This document shows positions 1 to 35,746 of a stretch of DNA of 64,000 nucleotides, piece by piece; position 1 is the stretch's first letter; each line of letters opens with the position of its first letter. Location of the stretch: contig CAJQUW010009243.1 of NCBI GenBank assembly GCA_907163375.1, positions 74,501 to 138,500 on the forward strand, read 5' to 3'. Source of the stretch: Prostheceraeus crozeri (Eukaryota > Platyhelminthes > Polycladida > Euryleptidae). The notes under the pieces were generated by a model, which saw only the letters and a list, made by a program, of their open reading frames with translations, did not search any database and was not told the origin of the DNA. The translations under genes and the position numbers were made by a program.

Positions 1-2
1 AT

Positions 3-708
3 CTCATTGACAACCATAAGACTCGGATCAAGATTCCTCTCGATGAAAAGGTATGGATAAAGTGTGATTCATCAGTCAAACTATACGTCTGTTCACCAAA
101 ACGTGAAGATGTTGAATATCGATTTTTTCGTTTCAGTGACGTCACATGGGAAACCTTTACAAGGGAGATACTACCACAGAGAACGTCATTCATTAAAGAT
201 GGAGGACATCAAACGGTTGGAAGTTGTAAATCGGATGTTAACTACAAAAGCAAAGTCAAAACTCAATCTACAAGAGATCGAGAGGAATATACCCAACCGA
301 AAACAATGGTTACTGATAAAACGCAAATTGAAGCCGACAACGAGCTTACATCTTGGAAGACCCTCAATGTTAACATGGAGGATTCAGAGGAAGGATAGAT
401 CTCTCACTATCCTATTCTTTCCAAATGGAACAATCCAATGTATTGGAAGGGTCATGGAGGGTGATCTCTCATATTTACACTTAACTTTGGAACATTTACT
501 TGGTGATTCATTATCTGATTGGAAAGTGAAGACAATGACCGTGTTATGTGAATTACACTATCACTATGATTTCCGTAAAGTTACATCATCACATAATCTA
601 ACTTATGAAGTGGAGTTATTTCCAGCAGCTCAATTGACTAACTGGCATCCATATCATGTTCATGTGTTCCATAATGGAAAGATTGTGATAACCGCATTAA
701 AGACATAA
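3..708 (+). pseudogene. Polinton TBP-like protein, frameshifted, 5' end outside window
   Basis: The last part, read in the frame ending at 706-708, resembles a TATA-binding-protein repeat. A block with FFPNGTIQCIGRV is followed by YEVELFPAAQL and then HVHVFHNGKIVITAL. TBP repeats have the same order: a YEPELFPGL-like turn, then a strand ending in SGKxVxTG. The upstream coding sequence appears to continue in the other frame from position 3 (WIKCDSSVKLYVCSP at its start) to a stop at 396-398. The two frames therefore have to be joined by a frameshift near 385-400, and I call it broken. It is the only plus-strand gene of the element here and converges on the protease gene. A role in element transcription is inference from the fold resemblance; fold-level comparison was not possible here. 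Confidence 0.55.
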
Positions 709-915
709 GTGATGTGCCTCCCATCATATGTGATTTGAAAAAATGTTTCATGAAAACCAAATTGTAGATTTTGTATATATGTGGATAGATAATGAAATGT
801 GAACATGTTTTTTGTATATATGTGAATAGATAATGAAATATGAGCATGTTTTTGTTTTCCTTATAAACCCTTGTTTTGGAAAAAAAGAGAGCAAGTTAAT
901 GATACAACATAAAAC

Positions 916-921
916 TTTATT
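916..921 (-). terminator. Polyadenylation signal overlapping the protease stop codon
   Basis: On the minus strand AATAAA overlaps the TAA stop of the protease ORF (917-919). This fits compact, virus-like gene packing. The signal would serve the MCP-protease transcript. Confidence 0.4.
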
Positions 922-1381
922 TCAAAACTGTTTCAACATATTTAGTAAGAATTACATCATTTTTATCACAGTTTTTTGAAAATCGTTCTAAAGCACTTTT
1001 ACAGTTATTTTTCAATGGTCTCTCGTTGACAAAATAGAGTACATAGCCACCGCACATTAGAGATGTATTACTTTGAAGTGGGAACGATGTCACTTTCCTA
1101 ACAGTCCAGGAAAACCTGTTCATCCATAATGCGATATCATGTAAACGAGGTTGATTAAGAGAGTCAAAATATTCGGCAACTTTATAACGATTGATGTATA
1201 CAGCAATCCAATGTTTTCCGGGAAGATTGTTGGTATCCGTATTGATGATAAGCGAACAAGGATAGAAAGGAATTGAATCAGGTAAATTATCTCTAGAAAA
1301 GACATTGAGAAATATTGTCTTGGAGTAGGGATGAGCTTTCCTCATTTTCCTCAAGATTTCTATGTTGCTTAAGTTACTCAT
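917..1381 (-). CDS. PRO: Polinton adenain-like cysteine protease
   Basis: This 154-residue ORF is a C5-type (adenain/Ulp1-like) cysteine protease, expected to mature capsid proteins during virion assembly. The catalytic order is visible: His57 in GKHWIAVYI, Asp73 in EYFDS, Gln103 in FPLQS and Cys110 in MCGGYVLYF. Length and spacing fit Polinton proteases and adenovirus protease. The ATG at 1381 overlaps the stop of the major capsid gene by four bases (ATGA), so the two are probably co-transcribed. The ORF is uninterrupted and all catalytic residues are present, although its upstream neighbour is frameshifted. Confidence 0.88.
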   Translation of the reverse strand: MSNLSNIEILRKMRKAHPYSKTIFLNVFSRDNLPDSIPFYPCSLIINTDTNNLPGKHWIAVYINRYKVAEYFDSLNQPRLHDIALWMNRFSWTVRKVTSFPLQSNTSLMCGGYVLYFVNERPLKNNCKSALERFSKNCDKNDVILTKYVETVLK

Positions 1382-2660
1382 CTCTGATAGCTGACAGTCA
1401 CGTCTCTCATTCTTGTTATCTCAACTTTGCTATCATAGATAGCATAAATGAGACAAGTAATTGTTTTCTTCAAAGGTGACTCAAATGATACCTCCAGTCG
1501 TAGATTTCCAGGCTTTGTAACTCCTACACTTTCACCACCTAGATCTGCATCTGCTGTGAGGTTGTACATAATGAAGAAGTAGCCATTCTTGTACATATCC
1601 ATTGTAATTCCATTTGAATCGTCTGTATTAAACATGTTGAGGGCGGTGAAAATAGAACCATATTCACGTGCGAATTTACCATCTTTGAAATTAGGCTCAT
1701 ATGCTTTGCAAGATACAAATTTCCCATCCTGATAGAGTGCTAGTTTGCTAACATTAAAGTGTTGGAAATTGAATGGATTCTTTTCAAAAGCACCAATGAA
1801 TGCCTCATTTTCCACAAATGTGATATACACCGCCTTTGGCATTGCAGTGGGAAAAAGATTTGGGTAGGCATGTGAGGATGATCCCGCACCAATTGTGAAG
1901 TTTGTCAACACACTGTGATTAACTGGATATATTGCATTGTTTTTCCTCAATCCTGTCGCATGCTCGTTGATGACTGACGGGTTCATTGTTACTCGCCTTA
2001 CATTGAGCACGGCATTACTTATGTTGACTTGATAGTTTGTAGCTCCAAAAGCCATTAACGCGAACTCAGGATTTGCGCGAATAAATTTTATTTGCATTTT
2101 AACCTGTGATAGCAGATATCTAGATTGACGAAGGAAATCAAGATAGACGGGTCCTTTCAAGTATAATTCCTTTGAATCCGCTGTTAAATCCATTCGTCTT
2201 TTCAACCCTGTATTTGAGACATCATCAAATTTCCCTTGTGATCATCATACCACCCAGAAACTTGCAAGTGTGACTGTTTAGCTTGCTTTTGAAATTGAGT
2301 CATTGTATGTATATATGCTCCATATGGATATGCTCGATCCCCTCCTTCAATCTGTTTGTCATTCAATATTAGATACACATCTGAGAACAGACTGGCAATA
2401 GGAAGATTTGCTAACCCCACTTTATCCTTGGATGAATCGATATTTGTACCATCAGTCTTCTTAATTTGTATACACAACTCTAAATCAATGGATTGACAGT
2501 CAATATAATCTTGAGGATTGGCAGGTATATCAAACTGAATAGGCTGCTGGTTACCATCGATATTTGTTGTGGGGACTATGTCTACAATTGTTGAGGAGAT
2601 GATGTCTGTCTGATGAGGGGGAGAATCGAAGAAACACAAAGCCGAATTGATACTCTGCAT
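1378..2660 (-). pseudogene. MCP: Polinton major capsid protein, one frameshift
   Basis: Two ORFs in different frames make up a double jelly-roll major capsid protein of the kind annotated in animal genomes as F54H12.2-like. The N-terminal 152 residues carry the diagnostic PTTNIDGNQQPIQFDIP and DYIDCQSIDLEL. The C-terminal part carries RMDLTADSKELYLKGP, SRYLLSQV and the IKFIRANPEFALM strand. The N-terminal frame stops at 2202-2204 and the second frame picks up immediately, so a single small indel lies near 2205-2210. Otherwise both halves are clean. The frameshift could be genuine decay or an assembly error. The gene is followed by the overlapping protease ORF. Confidence 0.85.
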
Positions 2661-2670
2661 CGTATTAGCT

Positions 2671-3108
2671 CTACAAATATGTTGTCTTCCTTCGTTTTGA
2701 CTTGTTTCTAGTAGCTGTGGAATTTCGTTTGCGCTTTCTTGTTTTCACTCGACGTCTAGATCTAGAACGTGCTGCTCTAGTCGGCTTTTTACTTTTCCTG
2801 CGTCTTTGCTTAGTAACTCGGCCTGATCCAACTTGTCTTGACTTCCTACGCTTCTTCCGAACTGTACGTCTCGTCTTTGTTAAATCATCTAATGCGTCTA
2901 TGGCAGATTGCTGCGCGCGCATTTTCATAGATTCACCGATATCCTCACCTTGAAGCGCATCAGCTGCAACATTTGCACCAAAATCTAAAGCCCTGCTTCC
3001 AACACGCTTCATGATTGGTACGCCATACTTTTTGAGTGTTGGAAGAACCATACGTCTTAGTGCACCAAATATGCCTCCTCCAACTTGTCGTCTACCTCCA
3101 ACAAACAC
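2671..3108 (-). CDS. Basic virion core-like protein (Polinton)
   Basis: This ORF of about 145 residues starts with a Gly-rich amphipathic stretch (GGRRQVGGGIFGALRRMV), continues through a helical middle with FGANVAADALQG, and ends in roughly 60 residues packed with Arg and Lys. The layout recalls the small DNA-condensing core or minor capsid proteins of adenoviruses and adintoviruses. DNA packaging is inferred from composition and position beside the capsid gene. There is no good ATG: the ORF opens with GTG at 3108, and the first in-frame ATG is about 20 residues in. A start codon may have been lost by an A-to-G change, or a short upstream exon may exist. Confidence 0.6.
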   Translation of the reverse strand: MFVGGRRQVGGGIFGALRRMVLPTLKKYGVPIMKRVGSRALDFGANVAADALQGEDIGESMKMRAQQSAIDALDDLTKTRRTVRKKRRKSRQVGSGRVTKQRRRKSKKPTRAARSRSRRRVKTRKRKRNSTATRNKSKRRKTTYL

Positions 3109-3195
3109 GGATAACCGCTCTGATATGATGGTCTACTGTAAATGCCTGTCATTATGACTATTGAATAACTATGGAAGTCACAATAGCGTAAAGCC

Positions 3196-4773
3196 TTATT
3201 CTCGTGACCTAATATGTAGGGTCAAAACAGTAACACCACCACAGAACGGTACTACTTCTCCTGCATCATCATGAATTGATATGTCAATTCTATTGGTGAA
3301 ATTTCGGCTGATTGGTAGATACATTGTGTTAAAAAATTCTCGATTGATTAGTTGCTTCCTTACGGATGAGAGAGGAAATGTGCGCAGAAGTGGGGCCTCA
3401 ATGTCGCCAACCCTTGTATATTCAATAATGTTACAATAGACGTATAAGTTACTTATATCACGCTCTAGTGATGGGGCTGTATCGCCTATTGATGTACCTT
3501 CATAAATAGTTGATTTTGAGAATCCCAATGTGGTCGTTAACACGCTATCCAGCTTGATAAGAGAGTTCTTCCCTACCTTTAGAATCATGCGTTTCTTATG
3601 TGGGTCATAAGAAAAGTGATATTCATCTGCATCAATGTAATCTACCCCAAACTCATTTAACTTTGTACACAATTCAGATGGCGTTTTCAAGCTTTCAATG
3701 TTCAAATTAACTCTTTTTACAAGTTCACTGGAAGTAGACAATTCATCACCCGATATGTCTTCGCTGTATACGTGGATATCCCATGAAGCATTTGTTGATG
3801 CTTTGAGTTTAGAAGAGGACAATTGAACCTTGAATGTATCATTTAATTCTGTCAACCAAGGTGCGCTTTCAAGGCCCTTAAACATCCCAATCATTTCAGA
3901 TCCAAATTCAATAACAGCGGACTCAGACTTTTCCAATGGTGTCTTTTTAGTAAAAACAATAAATTCTGCCTCCGTTTCAACAGTAAATAAAGTTACTTTC
4001 TCTTTCTTATATTCACAAGTCATTAACGTTTCTGGCACTGATCCTTGAAACTTTCTTGCAAAGTCTTCAACACTTCTAATGACCTCAAATTTATTTTTTA
4101 CTCGGATGCTCCTTTTTTGTAATGCATACAATGGCACAATTCTACATTTAAAATCAGTGACTTTCCTCTCCGAATTCCACCCACGTCCATTGTACCAATA
4201 CCTTGATGAGAAAGTTGTTCTGGAATACCCAAAAGTATGACTCAAATCCTTACCTAATACAAGAAGAACATGCTTCCCTTCCTTCATCAATTTTGTTGAC
4301 CCCTTTATGACTGGTTTGTAGAATTTATTCAAAGTCAGCTTGAAGAGATCATTTATTCGTTCAAACATTCTACCGATTTCCTTTTCTGTATCTTGCAAGC
4401 TCATTGTGGGAACCTTAGAATCAAAAGTTGACGTTACAAATGCCTTTTGAATTTTAATCATGTTTTGAACAGATGGTAAAGATGTTGAAAAAGGATGTAA
4501 AGTTAGATGATGAAAAGCCCATGTACCATGTAGACTATTTTGAAATATGCGAAAGCAATCATCCTTCTCTCGCACTTCTTTATGTAATTCAAAATAGTTG
4601 TTCTTCAGCAAACTGATATCGTTGTAATAAGTAATTTCAGTTAGAGCAACTTCATGGGGTCCATGCAGAGTAATTGGATTAGCGAATTCAACAGAGTATA
4701 GAGATGGTTTGTTACTTGGGAATATCTTGGGGTTGCTATTGCTTGGAAGAATGATATTGAAGTTAGTAGACAT
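3196..4773 (-). CDS. Large Polinton structural protein, possible penton or minor capsid protein
   Basis: This uninterrupted ORF of about 525 residues is read from the ATG at 4773; an upstream GTG at 4800 is less likely to be used. The N-terminus (FNIILPSNSNP, then FANPITLHGPHEVALTEITYYN) matches a pattern I associate with a conserved Polinton protein in many animals: a short strand, a Pro-rich turn, then GxxEVALTEI. The family is thought to be structural. Whether this is the penton-like protein is inference and would need structure comparison. It lies between integrase and core protein, all on the minus strand. The C-terminal FCGGVTVLTLHIR suggests a final beta strand. Confidence 0.6.
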   Translation of the reverse strand: MSTNFNIILPSNSNPKIFPSNKPSLYSVEFANPITLHGPHEVALTEITYYNDISLLKNNYFELHKEVREKDDCFRIFQNSLHGTWAFHHLTLHPFSTSLPSVQNMIKIQKAFVTSTFDSKVPTMSLQDTEKEIGRMFERINDLFKLTLNKFYKPVIKGSTKLMKEGKHVLLVLGKDLSHTFGYSRTTFSSRYWYNGRGWNSERKVTDFKCRIVPLYALQKRSIRVKNKFEVIRSVEDFARKFQGSVPETLMTCEYKKEKVTLFTVETEAEFIVFTKKTPLEKSESAVIEFGSEMIGMFKGLESAPWLTELNDTFKVQLSSSKLKASTNASWDIHVYSEDISGDELSTSSELVKRVNLNIESLKTPSELCTKLNEFGVDYIDADEYHFSYDPHKKRMILKVGKNSLIKLDSVLTTTLGFSKSTIYEGTSIGDTAPSLERDISNLYVYCNIIEYTRVGDIEAPLLRTFPLSSVRKQLINREFFNTMYLPISRNFTNRIDISIHDDAGEVVPFCGGVTVLTLHIRSRE

Positions 4774-4813
4774 GTTAAAGTCATATATGGAAGAAGTCAC
4801 ATGCTATATTAGC

Positions 4814-5056
4814 TTAAAAGTTACGAGTGTCTCCCATCTCCACATTTTGTAGATCCTGGTGCGTTATCCAGCTATTGAATGAATCAGGATATCCTTTCCA
4901 TTTAACTAGATATTTCCTTTGATTGCCATGACCTTTCCTCCTAATTATTTTATCAATCATATACACCTCTTCACTTCTGTCTACTACTTGCAATTCATAA
5001 GAGTAAAATTTTCCTTCAATTGGATTGCCATGGTAATCTATTAATTTATAGATTAA
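4814..5056 (-). pseudogene. INT: Polinton integrase, C-terminal chromodomain piece
   Basis: The minus strand reads a C-terminal integrase tail: YKLIDYHGNPIEGKFYSYEL, then YMIDKIIRRKG and the chromodomain core YLVKWKGYPDSFNSWI, stopping at 4814-4816. In Polintons this tail directly follows the rve domain. Here the upstream part is 7.7 kb away at 12770-13624, beyond the tandem array. The piece has no start of its own and is unlikely to be translated. It is too short to appear as a long ORF and was found by reading the gap. Confidence 0.8.
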
Positions 5057-5195
5057 TGGACAATCGATCCCCGCTACTTGCCTTAATGTCGGCGGTCACA
5101 ATTGTGACGTGTTATTTATTCATTGATTATTATTGCCTTGACAACTGATGTGTGGTGGTGAGGGTTTGATCCTGCCAACTGACAGAGTCGCGTAA

Positions 5196-5269
5196 GTGGC
5201 TCGTAGCTCAGATGGTTAGAGCACAGGTCTAGTTAACCTTGGTCGTAGGTTCGAATCCTACCAGCCGCA
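5196..5269 (+). tRNA. tRNA-like gene, array copy 1 (anticodon AGT, Thr-like)
   Basis: The 74 nt fold as a cloverleaf: acceptor GTGGCT plus G against CAGCCGC with one bulged C; D arm GCTC/GAGC with a 9-nt loop; anticodon stem CAGGT/ACCTT (four pairs) with loop CTAGTTA; a 4-nt variable loop; T arm GTAGG/CCTAC with loop TTCGAAT; discriminator A. The anticodon reads AGT (Thr). Pol III signals are intact: A box TAGCTCAGATGG, B box GGTTCGAATCC and TTTT five bases downstream. Odd points are the acceptor bulge, T instead of a purine at position 37 and a mismatch at 27-43. It could be a working tRNA, a pseudogene or the head of a tRNA-derived SINE. If the loop is read with extra bases, GTT (Asn) is also possible. 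Confidence 0.65.
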
Positions 5270-5493
5270 CATCTTTTGCATGGCAATTTGATCTATCGTT
5301 TATCTAATTTCATTGTTGTTAATTGCATTCACGACATGGTTTAAGATGCTTTGGTGGACAATCGATCCCCGCTACTTGCCTTAATGTCGGCGGTCACAAT
5401 TGTGACGTGTTATTTATTCATTGATTATTATTGCCTTGACAACTGATGTGTGGTGGTGAGGGTTTGATCCTGCCAACTGACAGAGTCGCGTAA

Positions 5494-5567
5494 GTGGCTC
5501 GTAGCTCAGATGGTTAGAGCACAGGTCTAGTTAACCTTGGTCGTAGGTTCGAATCCTACCAGCCGCA
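5494..5567 (+). tRNA. tRNA-like gene, array copy 2
   Basis: Identical to copy 1. Confidence 0.6.
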
Positions 5568-5791
5568 CATCTTTTGCATGGCAATTTGATCTATCGTTTA
5601 TCTAATTTCATTGTTGTTAATTGCATTCACGACATGGTTTAAGATGCTTTGGTGGACAATCGATCCCCGCTACTTGCCTTAATGTCGGCGGTCACAATTG
5701 TGACGTGTTATTTATTCATTGATTATTATTGCCTTGACAACTGATGTGTGGTGGTGAGGGTTTGATCCTGCCAACTGACAGAGTCGCGTAA

Positions 5792-5865
5792 GTGGCTCGT
5801 AGCTCAGATGGTTAGAGCACAGGTCTAGTTAACCTTGGTCGTAGGTTCGAATCCTACCAGCCGCA
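5792..5865 (+). tRNA. tRNA-like gene, array copy 3
   Basis: Identical to copy 1. Confidence 0.6.
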
Positions 5866-6089
5866 CATCTTTTGCATGGCAATTTGATCTATCGTTTATC
5901 TAATTTCATTGTTGTTAATTGCATTCACGACATGGTTTAAGATGCTTTGGTGGACAATCGATCCCCGCTACTTGCCTTAATGTCGGCGGTCACAATTGTG
6001 ACGTGTTATTTATTCATTGATTATTATTGCCTTGACAACTGATGTGTGGTGGTGAGGGTTTGATCCTGCCAACTGACAGAGTCGCGTAA

Positions 6090-6163
6090 GTGGCTCGTAG
6101 CTCAGATGGTTAGAGCACAGGTCTAGTTAACCTTGGTCGTAGGTTCGAATCCTACCAGCCGCA
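6090..6163 (+). tRNA. tRNA-like gene, array copy 4
   Basis: Identical to copy 1. Confidence 0.6.
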
Positions 6164-6387
6164 CATCTTTTGCATGGCAATTTGATCTATCGTTTATCTA
6201 ATTTCATTGTTGTTAATTGCATTCACGACATGGTTTAAGATGCTTTGGTGGACAATCGATCCCCGCTACTTGCCTTAATGTCGGCGGTCACAATTGTGAC
6301 GTGTTATTTATTCATTGATTATTATTGCCTTGACAACTGATGTGTGGTGGTGAGGGTTTGATCCTGCCAACTGACAGAGTCGCGTAA

Positions 6388-6461
6388 GTGGCTCGTAGCT
6401 CAGATGGTTAGAGCACAGGTCTAGTTAACCTTGGTCGTAGGTTCGAATCCTACCAGCCGCA
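6388..6461 (+). tRNA. tRNA-like gene, array copy 5
   Basis: Identical to copy 1. Confidence 0.6.
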
Positions 6462-6685
6462 CATCTTTTGCATGGCAATTTGATCTATCGTTTATCTAAT
6501 TTCATTGTTGTTAATTGCATTCACGACATGGTTTAAGATGCTTTGGTGGACAATCGATCCCCGCTACTTGCCTTAATGTCGGCGGTCACAATTGTGACGT
6601 GTTATTTATTCATTGATTATTATTGCCTTGACAACTGATGTGTGGTGGTGAGGGTTTGATCCTGCCAACTGACAGAGTCGCGTAA

Positions 6686-6759
6686 GTGGCTCGTAGCTCA
6701 GATGGTTAGAGCACAGGTCTAGTTAACCTTGGTCGTAGGTTCGAATCCTACCAGCCGCA
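6686..6759 (+). tRNA. tRNA-like gene, array copy 6
   Basis: Identical to copy 1. Confidence 0.6.
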
Positions 6760-6982
6760 CATCTTTTGCATGGCAATTTGATCTATCGTTTATCTAATTT
6801 CATTGTTGTTAATTGCATTCACGACATGGTTTAAGATGCTTTGGTGGACAATCGATCCCCGCTACTTGCCTTAATGTCGGCGGTCACAATTGTGACGTGT
6901 TATTTATTCATGATTATTATTGCCTTGACAACTGATGTGTGGTGGTGAGGGTTTGATCCTGCCAACTGACAGAGTCGCGTAA

Positions 6983-7056
6983 GTGGCTCGTAGCTCAGAT
7001 GGTTAGAGCACAGGTCTAGTTAACCTTGGTCGTAGGTTCGAATCCTACCAGCCGCA
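6983..7056 (+). tRNA. tRNA-like gene, array copy 7
   Basis: The tRNA part is intact. This unit lacks one T upstream (TATTCATGATT near 6907). Confidence 0.6.
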
Positions 7057-7280
7057 CATCTTTTGCATGGCAATTTGATCTATCGTTTATCTAATTTCAT
7101 TGTTGTTAATTGCATTCACGACATGGTTTAAGATGCTTTGGTGGACAATCGATCCCCGCTACTTGCCTTAATGTCGGCGGTCACAATTGTGACGTGTTAT
7201 TTATTCATTGATTATTATTGCCTTGACAACTGATGTGTGGTGGTGAGGGTTTGATCCTGCCAACTGACAGAGTCGCGTAA

Positions 7281-7354
7281 GTGGCTCGTAGCTCAGATGG
7301 TTAGAGCACAGGTCTAGTTAACCTTGGTCGTAGGTTCGAATCCTACCAGCCGCA
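7281..7354 (+). tRNA. tRNA-like gene, array copy 8
   Basis: Identical to copy 1. Confidence 0.6.
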
Positions 7355-7577
7355 CATCTTTTGCATGGCAATTTGATCTATCGTTTATCTAATTTCATTG
7401 TTGTTAATTGCATTCACGACATGGTTTAAGATGCTTTGGTGGACAATCGATCCCGCTACTTGCCTTAATGTCGGCGGTCACAATTGTGACGTGTTATTTA
7501 TTCATTGATTATTATTGCCTTGACAACTGATGTGTGGTGGTGAGGGTTTGATCCTGCCAACTGACAGAGTCGCGTAA

Positions 7578-7650
7578 GTGGCTCGTAGCTCAGATGGTTA
7601 GAGCACAGTCTAGTTAACCTTGGTCGTAGGTTCGAATCCTACCAGCCGCA
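7578..7650 (+). tRNA. tRNA-like gene, array copy 9, 1-nt deletion
   Basis: One G is missing in the anticodon stem (CACAGTCTAG instead of CACAGGTCTAG), which disrupts the stem. The same unit also lacks a C near 7453. Probably a non-functional copy, or sequencing error. Confidence 0.5.
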
Positions 7651-7874
7651 CATCTTTTGCATGGCAATTTGATCTATCGTTTATCTAATTTCATTGTTGT
7701 TAATTGCATTCACGACATGGTTTAAGATGCTTTGGTGGACAATCGATCCCCGCTACTTGCCTTAATGTCGGCGGTCACAATTGTGACGTGTTATTTATTC
7801 ATTGATTATTATTGCCTTGACAACTGATGTGTGGTGGTGAGGGTTTGATCCTGCCAACTGACAGAGTCGCGTAA

Positions 7875-7948
7875 GTGGCTCGTAGCTCAGATGGTTAGAG
7901 CACAGGTCTAGTTAACCTTGGTCGTAGGTTCGAATCCTACCAGCCGCA
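7875..7948 (+). tRNA. tRNA-like gene, array copy 10
   Basis: Identical to copy 1. Confidence 0.6.
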
Positions 7949-8172
7949 CATCTTTTGCATGGCAATTTGATCTATCGTTTATCTAATTTCATTGTTGTTA
8001 ATTGCATTCACGACATGGTTTAAGATGCTTTGGTGGACAATCGATCCCCGCTACTTGCCTTAATGTCGGCGGTCACAATTGTGACGTGTTATTTATTCAT
8101 TGATTATTATTGCCTTGACAACTGATGTGTGGTGGTGAGGGTTTGATCCTGCCAACTGACAGAGTCGCGTAA

Positions 8173-8246
8173 GTGGCTCGTAGCTCAGATGGTTAGAGCA
8201 CAGGTCTAGTTAACCTTGGTCGTAGGTTCGAATCCTACCAGCCGCA
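8173..8246 (+). tRNA. tRNA-like gene, array copy 11
   Basis: Identical to copy 1. Confidence 0.6.
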
Positions 8247-8470
8247 CATCTTTTGCATGGCAATTTGATCTATCGTTTATCTAATTTCATTGTTGTTAAT
8301 TGCATTCACGACATGGTTTAAGATGCTTTGGTGGACAATCGATCCCCGCTACTTGCCTTAATGTCGGCGGTCACAATTGTGACGTGTTATTTATTCATTG
8401 ATTATTATTGCCTTGACAACTGATGTGTGGTGGTGAGGGTTTGATCCTGCCAACTGACAGAGTCGCGTAA

Positions 8471-8544
8471 GTGGCTCGTAGCTCAGATGGTTAGAGCACA
8501 GGTCTAGTTAACCTTGGTCGTAGGTTCGAATCCTACCAGCCGCA
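8471..8544 (+). tRNA. tRNA-like gene, array copy 12
   Basis: Identical to copy 1. Confidence 0.6.
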
Positions 8545-8768
8545 CATCTTTTGCATGGCAATTTGATCTATCGTTTATCTAATTTCATTGTTGTTAATTG
8601 CATTCACGACATGGTTTAAGATGCTTTGGTGGACAATCGATCCCCGCTACTTGCCTTAATGTCGGCGGTCACAATTGTGACGTGTTATTTATTCATTGAT
8701 TATTATTGCCTTGACAACTGATGTGTGGTGGTGAGGGTTTGATCCTGCCAACTGACAGAGTCGCGTAA

Positions 8769-8842
8769 GTGGCTCGTAGCTCAGATGGTTAGAGCACAGG
8801 TCTAGTTAACCTTGGTCGTAGGTTCGAATCCTACCAGCCGCA
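8769..8842 (+). tRNA. tRNA-like gene, array copy 13
   Basis: Identical to copy 1. Confidence 0.6.
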
Positions 8843-9066
8843 CATCTTTTGCATGGCAATTTGATCTATCGTTTATCTAATTTCATTGTTGTTAATTGCA
8901 TTCACGACATGGTTTAAGATGCTTTGGTGGACAATCGATCCCCGCTACTTGCCTTAATGTCGGCGGTCACAATTGTGACGTGTTATTTATTCATTGATTA
9001 TTATTGCCTTGACAACTGATGTGTGGTGGTGAGGGTTTGATCCTGCCAACTGACAGAGTCGCGTAA

Positions 9067-9140
9067 GTGGCTCGTAGCTCAGATGGTTAGAGCACAGGTC
9101 TAGTTAACCTTGGTCGTAGGTTCGAATCCTACCAGCCGCA
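9067..9140 (+). tRNA. tRNA-like gene, array copy 14
   Basis: Identical to copy 1. Confidence 0.6.
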
Positions 9141-9364
9141 CATCTTTTGCATGGCAATTTGATCTATCGTTTATCTAATTTCATTGTTGTTAATTGCATT
9201 CACGACATGGTTTAAGATGCTTTGGTGGACAATCGATCCCCGCTACTTGCCTTAATGTCGGCGGTCACAATTGTGACGTGTTATTTATTCATTGATTATT
9301 ATTGCCTTGACAACTGATGTGTGGTGGTGAGGGTTTGATCCTGCCAACTGACAGAGTCGCGTAA

Positions 9365-9438
9365 GTGGCTCGTAGCTCAGATGGTTAGAGCACAGGTCTA
9401 GTTAACCTTGGTCGTAGGTTCGAATCCTACCAGCCGCA
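9365..9438 (+). tRNA. tRNA-like gene, array copy 15
   Basis: Identical to copy 1. Confidence 0.6.
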
Positions 9439-9662
9439 CATCTTTTGCATGGCAATTTGATCTATCGTTTATCTAATTTCATTGTTGTTAATTGCATTCA
9501 CGACATGGTTTAAGATGCTTTGGTGGACAATCGATCCCCGCTACTTGCCTTAATGTCGGCGGTCACAATTGTGACGTGTTATTTATTCATTGATTATTAT
9601 TGCCTTGACAACTGATGTGTGGTGGTGAGGGTTTGATCCTGCCAACTGACAGAGTCGCGTAA

Positions 9663-9736
9663 GTGGCTCGTAGCTCAGATGGTTAGAGCACAGGTCTAGT
9701 TAACCTTGGTCGTAGGTTCGAATCCTACCAGCCGCA
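9663..9736 (+). tRNA. tRNA-like gene, array copy 16
   Basis: Identical to copy 1. Confidence 0.6.
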
Positions 9737-9960
9737 CATCTTTTGCATGGCAATTTGATCTATCGTTTATCTAATTTCATTGTTGTTAATTGCATTCACG
9801 ACATGGTTTAAGATGCTTTGGTGGACAATCGATCCCCGCTACTTGCCTTAATGTCGGCGGTCACAATTGTGACGTGTTATTTATTCATTGATTATTATTG
9901 CCTTGACAACTGATGTGTGGTGGTGAGGGTTTGATCCTGCCAACTGACAGAGTCGCGTAA

Positions 9961-10034
9961 GTGGCTCGTAGCTCAGATGGTTAGAGCACAGGTCTAGTTA
10001 ACCTTGGTCGTAGGTTCGAATCCTACCAGCCGCA
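9961..10034 (+). tRNA. tRNA-like gene, array copy 17
   Basis: Identical to copy 1. Confidence 0.6.
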
Positions 10035-10258
10035 CATCTTTTGCATGGCAATTTGATCTATCGTTTATCTAATTTCATTGTTGTTAATTGCATTCACGAC
10101 ATGGTTTAAGATGCTTTGGTGGACAATCGATCCCCGCTACTTGCCTTAATGTCGGCGGTCACAATTGTGACGTGTTATTTATTCATTGATTATTATTGCC
10201 TTGACAACTGATGTGTGGTGGTGAGGGTTTGATCCTGCCAACTGACAGAGTCGCGTAA

Positions 10259-10332
10259 GTGGCTCGTAGCTCAGATGGTTAGAGCACAGGTCTAGTTAAC
10301 CTTGGTCGTAGGTTCGAATCCTACCAGCCGCA
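10259..10332 (+). tRNA. tRNA-like gene, array copy 18
   Basis: Identical to copy 1. Confidence 0.6.
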
Positions 10333-10556
10333 CATCTTTTGCATGGCAATTTGATCTATCGTTTATCTAATTTCATTGTTGTTAATTGCATTCACGACAT
10401 GGTTTAAGATGCTTTGGTGGACAATCGATCCCCGCTACTTGCCTTAATGTCGGCGGTCACAATTGTGACGTGTTATTTATTCATTGATTATTATTGCCTT
10501 GACAACTGATGTGTGGTGGTGAGGGTTTGATCCTGCCAACTGACAGAGTCGCGTAA

Positions 10557-10630
10557 GTGGCTCGTAGCTCAGATGGTTAGAGCACAGGTCTAGTTAACCT
10601 TGGTCGTAGGTTCGAATCCTACCAGCCGCA
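10557..10630 (+). tRNA. tRNA-like gene, array copy 19
   Basis: Identical to copy 1. Confidence 0.6.
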
Positions 10631-10854
10631 CATCTTTTGCATGGCAATTTGATCTATCGTTTATCTAATTTCATTGTTGTTAATTGCATTCACGACATGG
10701 TTTAAGATGCTTTGGTGGACAATCGATCCCCGCTACTTGCCTTAATGTCGGCGGTCACAATTGTGACGTGTTATTTATTCATTGATTATTATTGCCTTGA
10801 CAACTGATGTGTGGTGGTGAGGGTTTGATCCTGCCAACTGACAGAGTCGCGTAA

Positions 10855-10928
10855 GTGGCTCGTAGCTCAGATGGTTAGAGCACAGGTCTAGTTAACCTTG
10901 GTCGTAGGTTCGAATCCTACCAGCCGCA
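10855..10928 (+). tRNA. tRNA-like gene, array copy 20
   Basis: Identical to copy 1. Confidence 0.6.
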
Positions 10929-11152
10929 CATCTTTTGCATGGCAATTTGATCTATCGTTTATCTAATTTCATTGTTGTTAATTGCATTCACGACATGGTT
11001 TAAGATGCTTTGGTGGACAATCGATCCCCGCTACTTGCCTTAATGTCAGCGGTCACAATTGTGACGTGTTATTTATTCATTGATTATTATTGCCTTGACA
11101 ACTGATGTGTGGTGGTGAGGGTTTGATCCTGCCAACTGACAGAGTCGCGTAA

Positions 11153-11226
11153 GTGGCTCATAGCTCAGATGGTTAGAGCACAGGTCTAGTTAACCTTGGT
11201 CGTAGGTTCGAATCCTACCAGCCGCA
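11153..11226 (+). tRNA. tRNA-like gene, array copy 21, G-to-A variant
   Basis: One transition lies next to the A box (GGCTCATAGCTC instead of GGCTCGTAGCTC) and removes the pair that closes the acceptor stem. Two further transitions lie elsewhere in the unit, making it the most diverged copy. Confidence 0.55.
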
Positions 11227-11450
11227 CATCTTTTGCATGGCAATTTGATCTATTGTTTATCTAATTTCATTGTTGTTAATTGCATTCACGACATGGTTTA
11301 AGATGCTTTGGTGGACAATCGATCCCCGCTACTTGCCTTAATGTCGGCGGTCACAATTGTGACGTGTTATTTATTCATTGATTATTATTGCCTTGACAAC
11401 TGATGTGTGGTGGTGAGGGTTTGATCCTGCCAACTGACAGAGTCGCGTAA

Positions 11451-11524
11451 GTGGCTCGTAGCTCAGATGGTTAGAGCACAGGTCTAGTTAACCTTGGTCG
11501 TAGGTTCGAATCCTACCAGCCGCA
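11451..11524 (+). tRNA. tRNA-like gene, array copy 22
   Basis: Identical to copy 1. Confidence 0.6.
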
Positions 11525-11748
11525 CATCTTTTGCATGGCAATTTGATCTATCGTTTATCTAATTTCATTGTTGTTAATTGCATTCACGACATGGTTTAAG
11601 ATGCTTTGGTGGACAATCGATCCCCGCTACTTGCCTTAATGTCGGCGGTCACAATTGTGACGTGTTATTTATTCATTGATTATTATTGCCTTGACAACTG
11701 ATGTGTGGTGGTGAGGGTTTGATCCTGCCAACTGACAGAGTCGCGTAA

Positions 11749-11822
11749 GTGGCTCGTAGCTCAGATGGTTAGAGCACAGGTCTAGTTAACCTTGGTCGTA
11801 GGTTCGAATCCTACCAGCCGCA
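11749..11822 (+). tRNA. tRNA-like gene, array copy 23
   Basis: Identical to copy 1. Confidence 0.6.
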
Positions 11823-12046
11823 CATCTTTTGCATGGCAATTTGATCTATCGTTTATCTAATTTCATTGTTGTTAATTGCATTCACGACATGGTTTAAGAT
11901 GCTTTGGTGGACAATCGATCCCCGCTACTTGCCTTAATGTCGGCGGTCACAATTGTGACGTGTTATTTATTCATTGATTATTATTGCCTTGACAACTGAT
12001 GTGTGGTGGTGAGGGTTTGATCCTGCCAACTGACAGAGTCGCGTAA

Positions 12047-12120
12047 GTGGCTCGTAGCTCAGATGGTTAGAGCACAGGTCTAGTTAACCTTGGTCGTAGG
12101 TTCGAATCCTACCAGCCGCA
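12047..12120 (+). tRNA. tRNA-like gene, array copy 24
   Basis: Identical to copy 1. Confidence 0.6.
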
Positions 12121-12344
12121 CATCTTTTGCATGGCAATTTGATCTATCGTTTATCTAATTTCATTGTTGTTAATTGCATTCACGACATGGTTTAAGATGC
12201 TTTGGTGGACAATCGATCCCCGCTACTTGCCTTAATGTCGGCGGTCACAATTGTGACGTGTTATTTATTCATTGATTATTATTGCCTTGACAACTGATGT
12301 GTGGTGGTGAGGGTTTGATCCTGCCAACTGACAGAGTCGCGTAA

Positions 12345-12418
12345 GTGGCTCGTAGCTCAGATGGTTAGAGCACAGGTCTAGTTAACCTTGGTCGTAGGTT
12401 CGAATCCTACCAGCCGCA
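12345..12418 (+). tRNA. tRNA-like gene, array copy 25
   Basis: Identical to copy 1. Confidence 0.6.
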
Positions 12419-12642
12419 CATCTTTTGCATGGCAATTTGATCTATCGTTTATCTAATTTCATTGTTGTTAATTGCATTCACGACATGGTTTAAGATGCTT
12501 TGGTGGACAATCGATCCCCGCTACTTGCCTTAATGTCGGCGGTCACAATTGTGACGTGTTATTTATTCATTGATTATTATTGCCTTGACAACTGATGTGT
12601 GGTGGTGAGGGTTTGATCCTGCCAACTGACAGAGTCGCGTAA

Positions 12643-12716
12643 GTGGCTCGTAGCTCAGATGGTTAGAGCACAGGTCTAGTTAACCTTGGTCGTAGGTTCG
12701 AATCCTACCAGCCGCA
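12643..12716 (+). tRNA. tRNA-like gene, array copy 26
   Basis: Identical to copy 1. It lies in the last unit, which is cut off 53 bp downstream where integrase sequence resumes. Confidence 0.6.
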
Positions 12717-12769
12717 CATCTTTTGCATGGCAATTTGATCTATCGTTTATCTAATTTCATTGTTGTTAA

Positions 12770-13624
12770 ATACATGGTGGGTCTAAATTTTGTATTTACT
12801 TCATCCACAAAAAACTCTTCTTCATTCCAATTAGGTAGATACCCCTTCTCAAATGTAGACTTAACCTTTGAAATCCGAACTCTATCACCAACATTAATTT
12901 TCTTTTCATTGGAAATGTTTTTCGCTTTCTTATCATACAATCGAAGCCATACATCCATCGCATTATCTGGGGTAACATCAACTGGTTTCATCTTAATGAT
13001 TCGATGGTAGCTTTCATTGTAATTCTTAACAAATTTCTGCAGCTCACCTACCCAAACATGTGTATTTTTTGCAGTGAAATAGCGCCATATTTTTGTCTTC
13101 AGTGTGCGATTGAACCTCTCAACCATGGCAGCTTTATAAGCACTTTTGACACTAAACAATTCCACATTATGACTTTTAAGGAGACTTCGAACATGAGAGT
13201 TTTCGAATTCCTTCCCTTGATCGGTCTGTATTCTTTGCGGAACACGCCCCTCATCGAAAATGCTCTGAAAAGCCGCTTCAACTTCTGGTCTTCGTTTAGA
13301 TTTCAGCGCACGTGCCCAAGCATATCGAGATAAAATATCTATTACGGTTAAGATGTATTTATAGCCATCATTGTACTGTGATATCTGTTTCATGTCAGCC
13401 AAGTCCGCTTGCCATTGACTATCTATATTGTTAACAACATATTTTCTTGTTGGAAACCGCTTTCTCGCATTTTTGTGAAGAGTGTAAGTCGGTTGACTCC
13501 TCAACCACTTCTTGACTTTCTCTATTCCCACACCTGCTGCACGAGCTAGAACCTCCGGACGACTGAAACTTGCGGGATGATTTAAGTCGTAATAAATCTT
13601 TCTGAGTTTCACTGCTGTACTCAT
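12770..13624 (-). pseudogene. INT: Polinton integrase (rve, DDE), catalytic part, cut by the array
   Basis: Read from the ATG at 13624 (MSTAVKLRKIYYDLNHPASF) this is the Polinton retroviral-type integrase, which inserts element DNA into the host genome. An N-terminal helical domain (KVKKWLRSQPTYTLHK) precedes the rve core. The catalytic triad is visible: Asp74 in WQADLADM, Asp135 in IQTDQGKEF and Glu169 in MVERFNRTLK. After the SH3-like part (NVGDRVRISKVKSTFEKGYLPNW) the frame runs into the tandem array at about 12770 and stops a few codons inside it. The missing chromodomain tail is at 4814-5056. The catalytic core is intact, so loss of function rests on the split. An upstream in-frame TTG (13687) is not a likely start. 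Confidence 0.88.
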
Positions 13625-13757
13625 CGTCTTTGTTCTGATTTGCACGCGTATTACTCGCACAGCAACTGCTAACACAATTGATATCAACCTCTATGCCCTC
13701 TTCTCCTTTGCCTTCGAGCGCAGATTTCAAACAACAGCAAAATTTTTGTAACGACAT
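13431..13757 (-). CDS. Small Cys-rich ORF upstream of integrase (doubtful 3' half)
   Basis: An ATG at 13757 opens a 108-residue ORF. Its first 50 or so residues look protein-like, with two Cys clusters (FCCCLK and CVSSCCAS) around an acidic linker (EVDINCV). The rest overlaps the integrase start in another frame and has shadow composition. The true product may be only about 50 residues long, with its original stop lost. Cys-pair motifs near an N-terminus suggest a lipid-anchored or metal-binding small protein, but I do not recognise a family. Confidence 0.3.
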   Translation of the reverse strand: MSLQKFCCCLKSALEGKGEEGIEVDINCVSSCCASNTRANQNKDDEYSSETQKDLLRLKSSRKFQSSGGSSSCSRCGNRESQEVVEESTDLHSSQKCEKAVSNKKICC

Positions 13758-17400: not shown

Positions 17401-17910
17401 TCATGCACGATATACAGTGACTGTTGAAGATATTTCTTCATCGCAAAGGGGACAAGATGAAGTTTCAAAGGGTACATAACATGTAGAACACATAACGCTA
17501 TGAGAACATGGCAAAAAGAGAAGGGATCGTTCCTGTTTAAAACATTTAACGCAGTTCCGTTCACATAATAATTTAAATGTCTCTTGTTCTAATTTCCTTC
17601 TGAAGTCACTTTTATTGGGAGAACTTTTTATTAAAACACTGTCAGATGTCTCCTTCTTTCCATATCGTTCCAATTTGATCCTCCTAATTTCACTATCATT
17701 GCAGTGTAGCATGGAGAAATCCTCTATCCACCTACGATCCAAATTGTGATTCATAGCATGCTCATCTAGATCAATTAGTCGATCAACTAAATCACCAGCA
17801 TTGATATTTTCACTGAGATTTGTTACAGTTTCTATGGCTTTGAAAGAATATCCAAGGTCTCTTGCGACAACCCACGACGTTGGGATACTAGTCATCATTA
17901 TGTATGTCAT
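17401..17910 (-). CDS. UBA-RING protein, IAP-type E3 without BIR domain
   Basis: This ORF of about 169 residues starts at the ATG at 17910. The N-terminal 50 residues (SWVVARDLGYSFKAIETVTN, then GDLVDRLIDLDEHA) resemble the UBA domain of inhibitor-of-apoptosis proteins. The C-terminus is an IAP/MDM2-type RING: CVKC, then LLFLPCSHSVMCSTC, CPLC and the terminal hydrophobic VTVYR that IAP RINGs use for dimerisation. No BIR domain is present, so the caspase-binding part of a normal IAP is missing. A ubiquitin-ligase role against host defence or cell death is inference. It lies at the outer end of the Polinton gene array, where captured host genes are common, with its own TATA box. Confidence 0.72.
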   Translation of the reverse strand: MTYIMMTSIPTSWVVARDLGYSFKAIETVTNLSENINAGDLVDRLIDLDEHAMNHNLDRRWIEDFSMLHCNDSEIRRIKLERYGKKETSDSVLIKSSPNKSDFRRKLEQETFKLLCERNCVKCFKQERSLLFLPCSHSVMCSTCYVPFETSSCPLCDEEISSTVTVYRA

Positions 17911-17925
17911 CAAAAAACTATCTCA

Positions 17926-21376: not shown

Positions 21377-21475
21377 TTAAACCATGATAGTGCTATAGCT
21401 CCGTAGATATATTTTTAATAACGGAAAAAACTATGATATGTTTTCTTTGTTTGCGGGATATATTTTTACTATTTG

Positions 21476-23134
21476 CAGATTGTTTCATAAAAAATGGATC
21501 ACCCTTAAACATCGCCTTAACTTCAACTTTGTCTAACTCCGCCAAACTTGAACGAATTTCTCTGAAATTTGGAAGATATGTCAGTTGTGCTTACTAATAT
21601 CATTGTTGGAAATTTCAAGCATGAATATTGAGTTGTTTTCCTGTTATAGATAAAAAGTAGTAGATAATTTGATCTTCATTTAGCAATGTTACACAAAATC
21701 ATACCTCATTCTTATAAAATTACATTTGTTTCCTTTGTTATGTAATATGTTGTTCTACAAGCCAAAAGCTATCAAGCAAAGCAAAAATAAAGAAAATCGG
21801 TCAATCAGAGCCAGTATAGCACCATTATTCATCAACAATAATGTAACTGCTACATGTGAGTAACTGGACTTCATGTTCCATAGCTTCCTGACTTCGTTGC
21901 GGTGGTGTTGGCAGCACTCCCGATTGCTTTCAGCCAGAAATCTATCTCTTACCGGTTGAAAACTATACAAAGCACAAATGAACAATAACGAGATCGCATT
22001 CACAAAAGGCAAAGTGTCAGCCTTGCTAGAACTATAAGGGTTTTCTTTGCGAGCTACAAGCAAGCGACTAAATGTCCCTTACACAAATGTGCATCAATGG
22101 CATAATGATGATTTTCGGCTCTGTCGTAAAGAGGGCTCTGGCCGTCCACGCAAAACATCCAAACGTAGAGACCGCCTAATTTTGAGATTTGTTAAAGTTG
22201 ATCCAAGTCTCTCGTTAACTGAGATGGCTGCACTAGACTCGTCTATTTCTAAGTCCACTATTCGTAGATGACTTATTGAGTCGAATTTCAAGAGCTGTAA
22301 GAGGCCCTCTCAGATCGAATTATCAGATCAGCATACAAAAAGACGTCTCAGATGGGCAATGAGTCATCGTCACTGGCGAAATCAATTGGATCGGGTTGTC
22401 TGGTCTGATGAGGCATCAGTCCGTCTGAAGGATAGTGATGGTCGATTGAGATTATGGATAAAATCTGATCAGGAAATTCCGAGACATTTACATCGTCCCC
22501 GGGATACAAGGTGGTGCGACTCTACTGATTTGGGCTGGCATTTGGACCAATGGCCGCTCTGAACTTCACATACAGCAAGGAACCATGAATTCTGAACGCT
22601 ATGTGAATGTTTTACGAATGAACATTGGCCAAATGACAGATCAACTTGGTGATCCATCGACTTGGTTATTTATGGATGATAATGCTACGTGTCAAAGGAG
22701 TAGTAGAGTCAACTTATGCAAGTCTCAATTAGGGCTTAGGACATTATCTTGGCCAGCTCGTTCTCCTGATCTGAATCCCATAGAAAATGCATGGAGTATT
22801 CTAAAACGTAACGTTCGTCGTTCACTGCTACCTACAGATGGCGTATCACAAGTTACGTCACTGTTAAAAAGAGAGTGGAGAAAGTTAGATCAGTCAAAAA
22901 TCAACGATATCATCGAATCAATGCCTAGACGAATTGGTAATGTCATTGACAATAAGGGGAGGGCCACAAAATATTAGCTTCTTAAGAACCGTTACTGTAC
23001 CATAGCTTATCAGATTATATAAGGACATTTAAATATATTAGGGACATGAAATAACATGAAAAATGCTTTCTGTATCATACTTATGTTTTATTTAGTCAAA
23101 TTTTAGGATGTTCCACTTTTTATGAAACGGACTG
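21476..23134 (+). mobile_element. Tc1-family transposon, copy 1
   Basis: The ends are imperfect inverted repeats (CAGATTGTTTCATAAAAAAT at the left, the complement of CAGTCCGTTTCATAAAAAGT at the right). A DD34E transposase pseudogene lies inside on the plus strand. A sibling at 34377-35744 has the same ends. The insertion cuts the 3' end of the Crypton recombinase. No TA duplication is visible at this copy, unlike its sibling. Confidence 0.85.
21983..22977 (+). pseudogene. Tc1 transposase (DD34E), broken
   Basis: The DNA-binding part is legible (LRATSKRLNVPYTNVHQW, then SGRPRKTSKR), and the catalytic triad is present: Asp in VVWSDEASV, Asp in FMDDNATC, and Glu in SPDLNPIENAW, 34 residues after the second Asp. 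A TAA near 22034 (also present in the sibling copy), a TGA at 22269-22271 and a frameshift near 22520-22560 break it. ATG-less segments between breaks are not separate genes. Confidence 0.85.
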
Positions 23135-24533
23135 CCCTAAATGTTAAATAGCAAACGTTCACTGATTGAGTTCCAGTGCTGTAGATCGAAACTTTTGAAT
23201 GGCTGATAAACACGTTCATCTTGATACGGGCATCTTCTCCAGAAGAAGGGCTTGGATTGTTGGGTTGCACTTGACGCAGAAGTTTGCCGTCCAATACTGC
23301 AGAGCACTGTTCTAAATGAATGTCTGATGTCCTTTTATATGCTCTCACTCCATTAACACTCCTGTGTCCTGTCCTTTCCATTATTAACTGCTCATCTACA
23401 TTGGCTTCATAGAGTCGTGTAGCACAGGTTGCTCGTAAACTGTGATTTGTTAGTGATGAGAATTTCCTGCCTTTTCACTAATCCTCTTCATATATCCAGC
23501 CAACTTATTTCTACTGATTGGTCGGTTTGTATACCACGTTGTGTTTGACAAATTACAGTTCTTTTTCGGCATTATATAAAATCGATTTGTATCAGCGGGT
23601 CGGACTTGGTTGAATTTCTCAAAGAATGCAACATGACATCGCGTTTTATTGTCATTTTCAAATTGTACAACTTCTTTTGCCTTATGCCGCATGTTACGTA
23701 GGCCACCAGAATTGTTTTTGGAGCACTTTTCAGTATACACGAGACATTTCTTTTCATTTCGTATTTCCACTTTGAATTGGTCCATTGTTAACATGCCGTG
23801 CTCATCTCCACCTCGTAATGCGAAGTGAATACCATTCAAGTAGAAAAGAGTGTACAGCAGTTTTTCTGGTGTCTCATTCCCCAAAGATTTCTCCCATAAT
23901 TTCTTTTCCTCTTTAAAACTATTAACATCTGCGGATTTTCGTGGTAAGTTGCAACCCAATTTAGCAGACATTTTCATTGCAGTATCCAAGCATTCTTTCA
24001 CATGCAAGAAACTGTTGTCATTAAAGAAATCGACTCGGTTTTTATTTGTAGATAATGTATTCTGAATTCCGGCTACAATTGAAACTAATGTAGCGCCTTG
24101 ATATCGTTGTCCGTCGCTTCTTCTTGCTTCGTGAACAAAGCGTGCCATCACACTACAAAGTTCATTTTTGTTGTAAAAGTCTATTTCTATCTTTCGTTCC
24201 TTTAGCCAATCAGTCAAAATCTTGTAGGCCCATCTATTTCGCTTCAAGGTGTTTTTTTTTTTTTGACTTCCCTTCGTGATTCAAGATGTTGATCTCTTCT
24301 GTACTTATACAGTTTCCAAAGCGAGATACTGATCCATAAGGAAGTTCTTCAGATCCAGGAGAAACAGTTTTTGTTTCATTATTTGCAGGGCTAGAAGAGG
24401 ATCTTATACTTGCATTTTCGCGAAGAACTTCATTTATTTCATGAATTTCCAGGCCACTGATCATTTATCCTGGAAATAGACTAAAATCAATTGGATATGG
24501 CCAGTCATTCATATCATCACTCACATATGCCAT
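23135..24533 (-). pseudogene. Crypton-type tyrosine recombinase, broken
   Basis: The gene probably begins at the ATG at 24533 (MAYVSDDMNDWPYPIDFSLF). A TAA follows after 22 codons, then the frame shifts in a poly-T run (24249-24262) and again near 23460. The DUF3504/Crypton recombinase core is recognisable: Arg in FALRGGDEHGML, the HxxR box in TNHSLRATCATRLYE, GHRS, and a Tyr in VRAYKRTSD. These are the RHRY residues of a tyrosine recombinase, which cuts and rejoins DNA through a circular intermediate. The C-terminus is lost where Tc1 inserted. Domesticated relatives exist in animals (QRICH1, ZMYM and KCTD1 families), but the decay here argues for a mobile copy. Confidence 0.82.
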
Positions 24534-34376: not shown

Positions 34377-35744
34377 CAGTCCGTTTCATAAAAAGTGGAT
34401 CAGCCTAAAATTTGACTAAATAAAATATAAGTATGATACAGAAAGCATTTTTCATGTTATTTTATGTCCCTAATATATTTAAATGTCCTTATATAATCTG
34501 ATAAGCTATGATACAGTAACGGTTCTTAAGAAGCTAATATTTTGTGGCCCTACCCTTATTGTCAATGACATTACCAATTCGTCTAGGCATTGATTCGACG
34601 ATATCGTTGATTTTTGACTAATCTAACTTTCTCCACTCTCTTTTTAACAGTGACGTAAGTTGTGATACGCCATCTGTAGGTAGCAGTGAACGACGAACGT
34701 TACGTTTTAGAATACTCCATACATTTTCTATGGGATTCATATCAGGAGAACGAGCTGGCCAAGATAATGTCCTAAGCCCTAATTGAGACTTGCATAAGTT
34801 GACTCTACTACTCCTGTGACACGTAGCATTATCATCCATAAATAACCAAGTCGATGGATCACCAAGTTGATCTGTCATTTGGCCAATGTTCATTCGTAAA
34901 ACATTCACATAGCGTTCAGAATTCATGGTTCCTTGCTGTATGTGAAGTCTTCTACGAATAGTGGACTTAGAAATAGACGAGTAAAGTGCAGCCATCTCAG
35001 TTAACGAGAGACTTGGATCAACTTTAACAAATCTCAAAATTAGGCGGTCTCTACGTTTGGATGTTTTGCGTGGACGGCCAGAGCCCTCTTTACGACAGAG
35101 TCGAAAATCATCATTATGCCATCGATGCACATTTGTGTAAAGGACATTTAGTCGCTTGCTTGTAGCTCGCAAAGAAAACCCTTATAGTTCTAGCAAGGCT
35201 GACACTTTGCTTTTTGTGAATGTGATCTCGTTATTGTTCATTTGTGCTTTGTATAGTTTTCAACCGGCAAGAGATAGATTTCTAGCTGAAAGCAATCAGG
35301 AGTGCTGCCAACACCACCGCAACGAAGTCAGGAAGCTATGGAACATGAAGTCCAGTTAATCACATGTAGCAGTTACATTATTGTTGATGAATAATGGTGC
35401 TATACTGGCTCTGATTGACCGATTTTCTTTATTTTTGCTTTGCTTGATAGCTTTTGGCTTGTAGAACAACATATTACATAACAAAGGAAACAAAAGTAAT
35501 TTTATAAGAGTGAGGTATGATTTTGTGTAACATTGCTAAATGAAGATCAAATTATCTACTACTTTTTTATCTATAACAGGAAAACAACTCAATATTCATG
35601 CTTGAAATTTCCAACAATGATATTAGTAAGCACAACTGACATATCTTCCAAATTTCAGAGAAATTCGTTCAAGTTTGGCGGAGTTAGACAAAGTTGAAGT
35701 TAAGGCGATGTTTAAGGGTGATCCATTTTTTATGAAACAATCTG
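34377..35744 (-). mobile_element. Tc1-family transposon, copy 2 (internally deleted)
   Basis: The ends match copy 1 at 21476-23134 and are flanked by an intact TA duplication (34375-34376 and 35745-35746). It is about 290 bp shorter owing to one internal deletion in the transposase. Confidence 0.9.
34534..35215 (-). pseudogene. Tc1 transposase, internally deleted
   Basis: Compared with copy 1, the part between STIRRRL and HIQQGTMNSERY is gone. This removes the first catalytic Asp (WSDEAS) while leaving the frame open for 184 codons. A TAG just after REWRKLD (CAG in copy 1) ends it early. The remaining Asp (FMDDNATC) and Glu (SPDMNPIENVW) are present. It cannot be an active transposase. Confidence 0.85.
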
Positions 35745-35746
35745 TA

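Follow-up and report, generated by a model that had tools for sequence, protein, structure and literature searches.

Within a 64,000-nt window of the genome of Prostheceraeus crozeri (Platyhelminthes; Polycladida), on contig CAJQUW010009243.1, a tandem array of tRNA-like genes lies inside the integrase gene of a putative Polinton, an identity suggested by the integrase type (rve core plus chromodomain). The array splits the integrase open reading frame (ORF), as had been claimed in an earlier note on this DNA. On one side is the rve core (PF00665, 1.4e-13), in the ORF at 12740-13687 (minus strand), and on the other is the chromodomain (Chromo, PF00385, 1.7e-10), in the ORF at 4838-5056 (minus strand). 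The two pieces were compared with P0001, an uninterrupted 362-aa integrase from a 3534-bp public contig, which is 99% identical to each of them separately.

4838..5050, minus strand: C-terminal part of the integrase (chromodomain), identical by BLASTP in 71 of 72 residues to P0001 residues 284-355
5057..12769, plus strand: tandem array of 25 whole 298-bp units and one partial unit of 266 nt
12770..13624, minus strand: N-terminal part of the integrase (rve core), identical in 282 of 285 residues to P0001 residues 1-285

The pieces meet at residue 285 of P0001, and the sole mismatch in the C-terminal piece falls in filler bases at the junction, described below. At least one near-identical integrase, that of the public contig, is without the array, and both rve and chromodomain are present in 113 of the 120 best relatives (of 3840). 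Because P0001 is continuous and near-identical, the comparison indicates that the insertion is younger than the integrase gene. The evident effect of the array on the sequence is clear: in this copy of the integrase the chromodomain has been parted from the catalytic core. No Polinton relatives were confirmed in IMG/VR, whether the patterns came from P0001 (three stretches) or from 30 aligned relatives among the 120 listed (67 stretches).

The claim of 26 head-to-tail units of 298 bp is borne out by Tandem Repeats Finder, which returned identical coordinates (5057-12769; period 298, 25.9 copies, score 15384). When compared base by base, 23 of the 26 units, the partial one included, are identical to unit 1. 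One base is missing from unit 7 (297 bp) and two from unit 9 (296 bp), and unit 21 differs from unit 1 by three transitions, making six changes in the 7713 bp of the array. All three transitions are at CpG, which accounts for 26 of the 130 C/G positions in the unit (chance probability 0.008). The pattern is a hint of methylation: the methylated sites either truly mutated or were miscalled during base-calling. No further copies of the unit were found in the rest of the window, where blastn matches were of only 21-24 nt (best E 0.027).

Each unit contains one tRNA-like gene, called by both ARAGORN and the Rfam covariance model. ARAGORN reports tRNA-Thr(AGT) in 26 of 26 units, and all 26 exceed the gathering score of 29 for RF00005, 24 of them at 41 bits, one at 37.9 and one at 30.1. 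The following features of the units were located; Pol III is RNA polymerase III.

5095..5108, no strand assigned: perfect palindrome of 14 bp at positions 39-52 of unit 1, outside the tRNA-like gene
5196..5270, plus strand: tRNA-like gene of unit 1 (ARAGORN tRNA-Thr AGT; Rfam tRNA, 41 bits)
5204..5215, plus strand: A-box-like stretch of unit 1, D arm TAGCTCAGATGG (by eye, unit 1 only)
5248..5258, plus strand: B box of unit 1, GGTTCGAATCC, recurring in 26 of 26 units
5274..5277, plus strand: TTTT, Pol III terminator-like, three bases past the ARAGORN end of the unit 1 gene
12643-12717, plus strand: last tRNA-like gene of the array (one gene per unit)

Of the promoter elements and stop previously attributed to every unit, the B box is exact in all 26. 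Searching the whole window for it with up to one mismatch gave 26 matches, all exact and all within the array (0.57 expected by chance). The A-box-like stretch and the TTTT were located in unit 1, the former at 5204-5215 (TAGCTCAGATGG), which we take to resemble the A-box consensus. The unit also holds a 38-aa open frame.

The description of these genes as cloverleaf-capable holds for the ARAGORN structures; it does not hold for the stems, which are imperfect, or for the predicted fold. In unit 1 (units 9 and 21 were drawn too), six pairs form in the acceptor stem, at whose foot there is a mismatch or an extra base, and the anticodon stem has four pairs of its five. The minimum-energy RNA fold is not a cloverleaf and hardly surpasses those of shuffled sequences (z -1.43), 15 of 200 of which fold equally well or better. 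Eleven ordinary tRNAs from four plasmid and phage loci (L001-L004), a yardstick of bacterial and phage tRNAs rather than host ones, score 55.0-76.2 bits, against 41 for the array gene. Neither the complete acceptor and anticodon stems nor the covariance score in the ordinary range that mark a functional tRNA were found. Because the score is 41 against 55-76 bits and both stems are impaired, the tRNA of the array is probably not a working one, and the proposal that the array supplies tRNA is disfavoured by this degenerate structure. Arrays of this kind can inflate automatic tRNA counts; here 26 'tRNA-Thr' calls arise from one degenerate sequence.

No tRNA was found outside the array in the window at the Rfam gathering threshold, and between 12770 and 64000 a search at E up to 2 gave three weak matches, no tRNA among them. 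In two units of the array, a minus-strand Rfam match to Plastid-ycf2 was set aside as weak (24.9 bits; gathering score, 65.7). The nearest tRNAs were sought in phage and bacterial collections, without eukaryotes, so that the matches need not reflect ancestry. Fourteen phage records match the array tRNA at 80-90%, among them Pseudomonas phage tRNA-Asn (80.5-81.8%) and the tRNA-Arg of phage G and of a Citrobacter phage. There are 42 matching plasmid records, including tRNA-Asn of a Bacillus subtilis plasmid (86.2% over 65 nt) and a Caballeronia tRNA-Ile (78.8%), and no match in E. coli genomes. An exact 61-base pattern of the tRNA had no match in IMG/VR viral contigs, and an exact 25-base pattern had none there or in GTDB genome contigs; for an animal repeat, such results from viral and prokaryote contigs say little.

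The ends of the array carry information on how it may have entered the gene.

5048..5056, plus strand: left junction, ATA common to the right flank (5048-5050), then GATTAA (5051-5056)
12770..12772, plus strand: right junction, ATA, the second copy of the 3-bp overlap

The GATTAA at 5051-5056 is foreign to the unit and, judged by the P0001 protein, to the gene. At the right junction, unit position 266, the last base of a TTAA, is followed by ATA. The simplest reading of the two junctions would be a 3-bp overlap, ATA, together with six filler bases. Unit positions 267-298 are present between units only and are missing at both ends of the array. Because this spacer is only internal, the piece that entered probably already contained more than one unit, provided that the ends of the array are original. 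It had been proposed that a single tRNA-bearing insert landed in the integrase and was then amplified. The insertion and a satellite-like amplification stand, whereas the single unit is not favoured, given the spacer.

Several candidate routes were tried and rejected. For insertion at TTAA, this motif is present at both ends, but P0001 is without the extra residues that would be required, and the ATA overlap is preferred. Copying of the filler from the flank would be compatible with a 5-nt match, yet 3007 of 20000 random Polinton 6-mers do equally well. A DNA transposon with terminal inverted repeats is not indicated: over 400 offset pairs, the best ungapped 12-mer between the ends matches at 9 of 12 positions, at offsets 6 and 16, and is non-terminal. 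Retrozymes are tandem elements with a hammerhead ribozyme core; neither strand of the doubled unit contains CTGANGA, and no ribozyme was found in two units with Rfam at E up to 1.

With moderate confidence, the array is interpreted as a young tRNA-bearing satellite of Pol III type that disrupted one Polinton copy. This is proposed because 23 of the 26 units are unchanged, the relative P0001 is intact, the spacer pattern and the shape of the junctions fit, the tRNA score is low, and the window contains a single array; tandem families with tRNA-like segments, with units of about 250-360 nt, provide precedents (PMC10702118). As in tRNA-bearing Pol III satellites, the unit is a few hundred bp long and arranged head-to-tail, with a tRNA-like segment and exact B box in every one of the 26 units. 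The entering fragment, of more than one unit, may have come from an array elsewhere, an extrachromosomal circle or a rolling-circle concatemer. End joining of this fragment into a break in the integrase would leave the 3-bp overlap and the six filler bases. The units could then have been kept identical by unequal exchange, by gene conversion, or by the rolling-circle step itself. Most likely, the tRNA-like gene is a relic of the amplified sequence. Transcription of the array by Pol III is possible; neither a benefit to the Polinton nor a supply of charged tRNA would be expected. Probably, this is a satellite without known benefit, and functionless. It would be a long shot to extend this to a mobile Pol III satellite, in which rolling-circle concatemers use Polintons as landing sites or carriers and so seed the host genome.

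Five points weigh against the interpretation as a young satellite that entered as a multimer. The empty site is deduced from the P0001 protein, not from DNA. The ends of the array could have been trimmed after amplification. The spacer heptamer ACATGGT is found again among the 200 bases of the right flank nearest the array, a possible sign that amplification took place on the spot and picked up the spacer there; we think chance the better explanation. The label 'satellite' rests on one array. Lastly, the B box is exact in all units, which also fits selection for transcription; exact B boxes would, however, be expected to look the same in a young array even without selection.

Among the alternatives, a tRNA-derived short interspersed element (SINE) or other transposon that inserted by its own machinery and was then multiplied in place is considered unlikely. 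SINEs are marked by an A-rich or simple-repeat tail and by the lack of a terminator behind the tRNA head. In the array, TTTT begins three bases behind the tRNA, and inspection of the unit by eye shows no tail of A-rich or simple-repeat sequence. A SINE relic could be contained in the unit, with its 5′ part, tRNA and 3′ part, and the common ATA might represent a short target duplication, but no convincing terminal inverted repeats were found and the overlap is only 3 bp plus filler. Most SINE heads are tRNA-derived and SINE-derived satellites are known (PMC10702118; this and the other publications cited are represented here by part of their text). Against this origin, the array is without the extended terminal unit described for most reptile SINE satellites (PMC10702118), and no relative was found elsewhere within the 64-kb window.

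An assembly artefact, either too many copies or an array wrongly placed in the Polinton, is distinctly unlikely. The extreme uniformity of the units would fit, and units 7 and 9 lack three single bases in the manner of long-read errors. However, a chance misjoin of the flanks is unlikely because both belong to one gene and join at the same codon of P0001, a place that a misjoin would hardly hit. The three CpG changes of unit 21 also look like methylation-linked mutation, although methylation-linked base-calling error gives an identical pattern.

It is very improbable that the array is genuine Polinton cargo, tRNA-like genes that the element would carry and spread, either to compensate for codon use or as its own Pol III transcripts. 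For a collection of Polinton-like viruses and virophages, 558 tRNA genes are reported (PMC12220804), and the B box is retained in all 26 units. Against this, the array has broken the element's own integrase, the 99% identical relative P0001 is without it, and the cloverleaf is degenerate; 26 copies of a single isoacceptor would also be unlike codon compensation.

Least credible is an array acting on chromatin, as Pol III insulators or a heterochromatin seed, and retained to silence the Polinton: tRNA genes can serve as insulators and the CpG-only changes of unit 21 hint at methylation, but the array is of recent origin, three changes confined to one unit are a small number, and no result obtained here supports binding, silencing or selection.

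Around the interrupted gene, other evidence for the host element is as follows. Neighbouring ORFs include matches to AAA_14 (7.1e-5) and Peptidase_C48 (0.04), both below the Pfam cut-offs. Two overlapping ORFs in different frames on the minus strand (1381-2744) resemble parts of one capsid gene; they (1381-2241 and 2205-2744) have no Pfam match, and the capsid label is our presumption. If they do belong to one gene, this Polinton copy was in decay. Among the ORFs listed for the window, none is of polymerase size; the longest has 535 aa, in a list that leaves out ORFs extending past the ends. Inverted repeats were sought inside 1-5056 and inside 12770-40000, not between the two regions, and the element seems to extend beyond the left end of the window. 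At 61-708, on the plus strand and so opposite to the integrase, is a TATA-binding-protein ORF (PF00352, 1.4e-10; no match by phmmer against PDB); a gene of this type within or beside a Polinton may be unusual. A RING-finger ORF (17404-17922, minus strand; PF13920, 1.7e-10) is apparently close to the right end of the element.

Other mobile sequences are present further along the window. The regions 21469-23134 and 34377-35751 form an inverted pair of DDE_3 (Tc1-type) transposon copies, approximately 98% complementary, and the second copy is without 288 bases that the first holds at 22275-22562. Because the DDE_3 ORF runs into those 288 bases, they were more likely lost from the second copy than gained by the first. 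At 23106-24280 (minus strand) are two ORFs, one with a tyrosine-recombinase match and one with DUF3504 and QRICH1 matches, which we presume to be, perhaps, a Crypton-like element.

The array is a snapshot of a tRNA-bearing repeat shortly after it entered a known, once-continuous gene. With the empty site inferable from an intact relative, it offers a test of how tRNA-like satellites originate and move, by amplification in place or as a ready-made concatemer. It had been stated that no case of a tRNA gene (tDNA) satellite inside a Polinton was known, and indeed no tDNA array inside an animal Polinton is described in the literature surveyed, mostly titles and the beginnings of abstracts. Related systems have, nevertheless, been published, among them tRNA-like satellites, tDNA clusters and viral tRNAs.

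By description, the unit looks like the tRNA-like tandem families of amphibians: PolIII/TAN of newt (about 360 nt), OAX of Xenopus and Rana/polIII (about 250 nt) (PMC10702118). In vitro transcription is reported for PolIII/TAN, Rana/polIII is said to make up to 10% of some frog genomes, and none of the three has a confirmed SINE parent, as given in the available text of that source; the same text regards the abundance of PolIII/TAN as unconfirmed and the unit of OAX as longer than befits a proper satellite (PMC10702118). These families and the array are alike in being tandem repeats that hold a tRNA-like or tRNA-derived segment (PMC10702118). The array differs in being known from one block of 26 units, in a Polinton integrase, a comparison made by description rather than by sequence. 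Squamate SINE-derived satellites likewise involve tandem amplification of tRNA-derived sequence, but the snake unit is 67 nt, compared with 298 bp and a whole tRNA-like gene in the array, for which no SINE parent or extended terminal unit was found (PMC10702118).

Clustered or tandem tDNA is also known from Entamoeba, in which units have up to five tRNA genes with short repeats between them (PMC2652664), and from large animal clusters described for host tRNA genes and pseudogenes (PMC2888827). Unlike these, the array has one degenerate tRNA-like gene per unit and is inside a mobile element. In Polinton-like viruses and virophages, as here, a tRNA gene lies inside a Polinton-related element; in the available text those tRNAs are discussed as cargo and no tandem array is described, whereas the array reported here breaks the integrase (PMC12220804). 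As far as these sources extend, satellites with tRNA-like segments have already been published, as have tRNAs of Polinton-like viruses, and what is new is the location of this array and its sequence.

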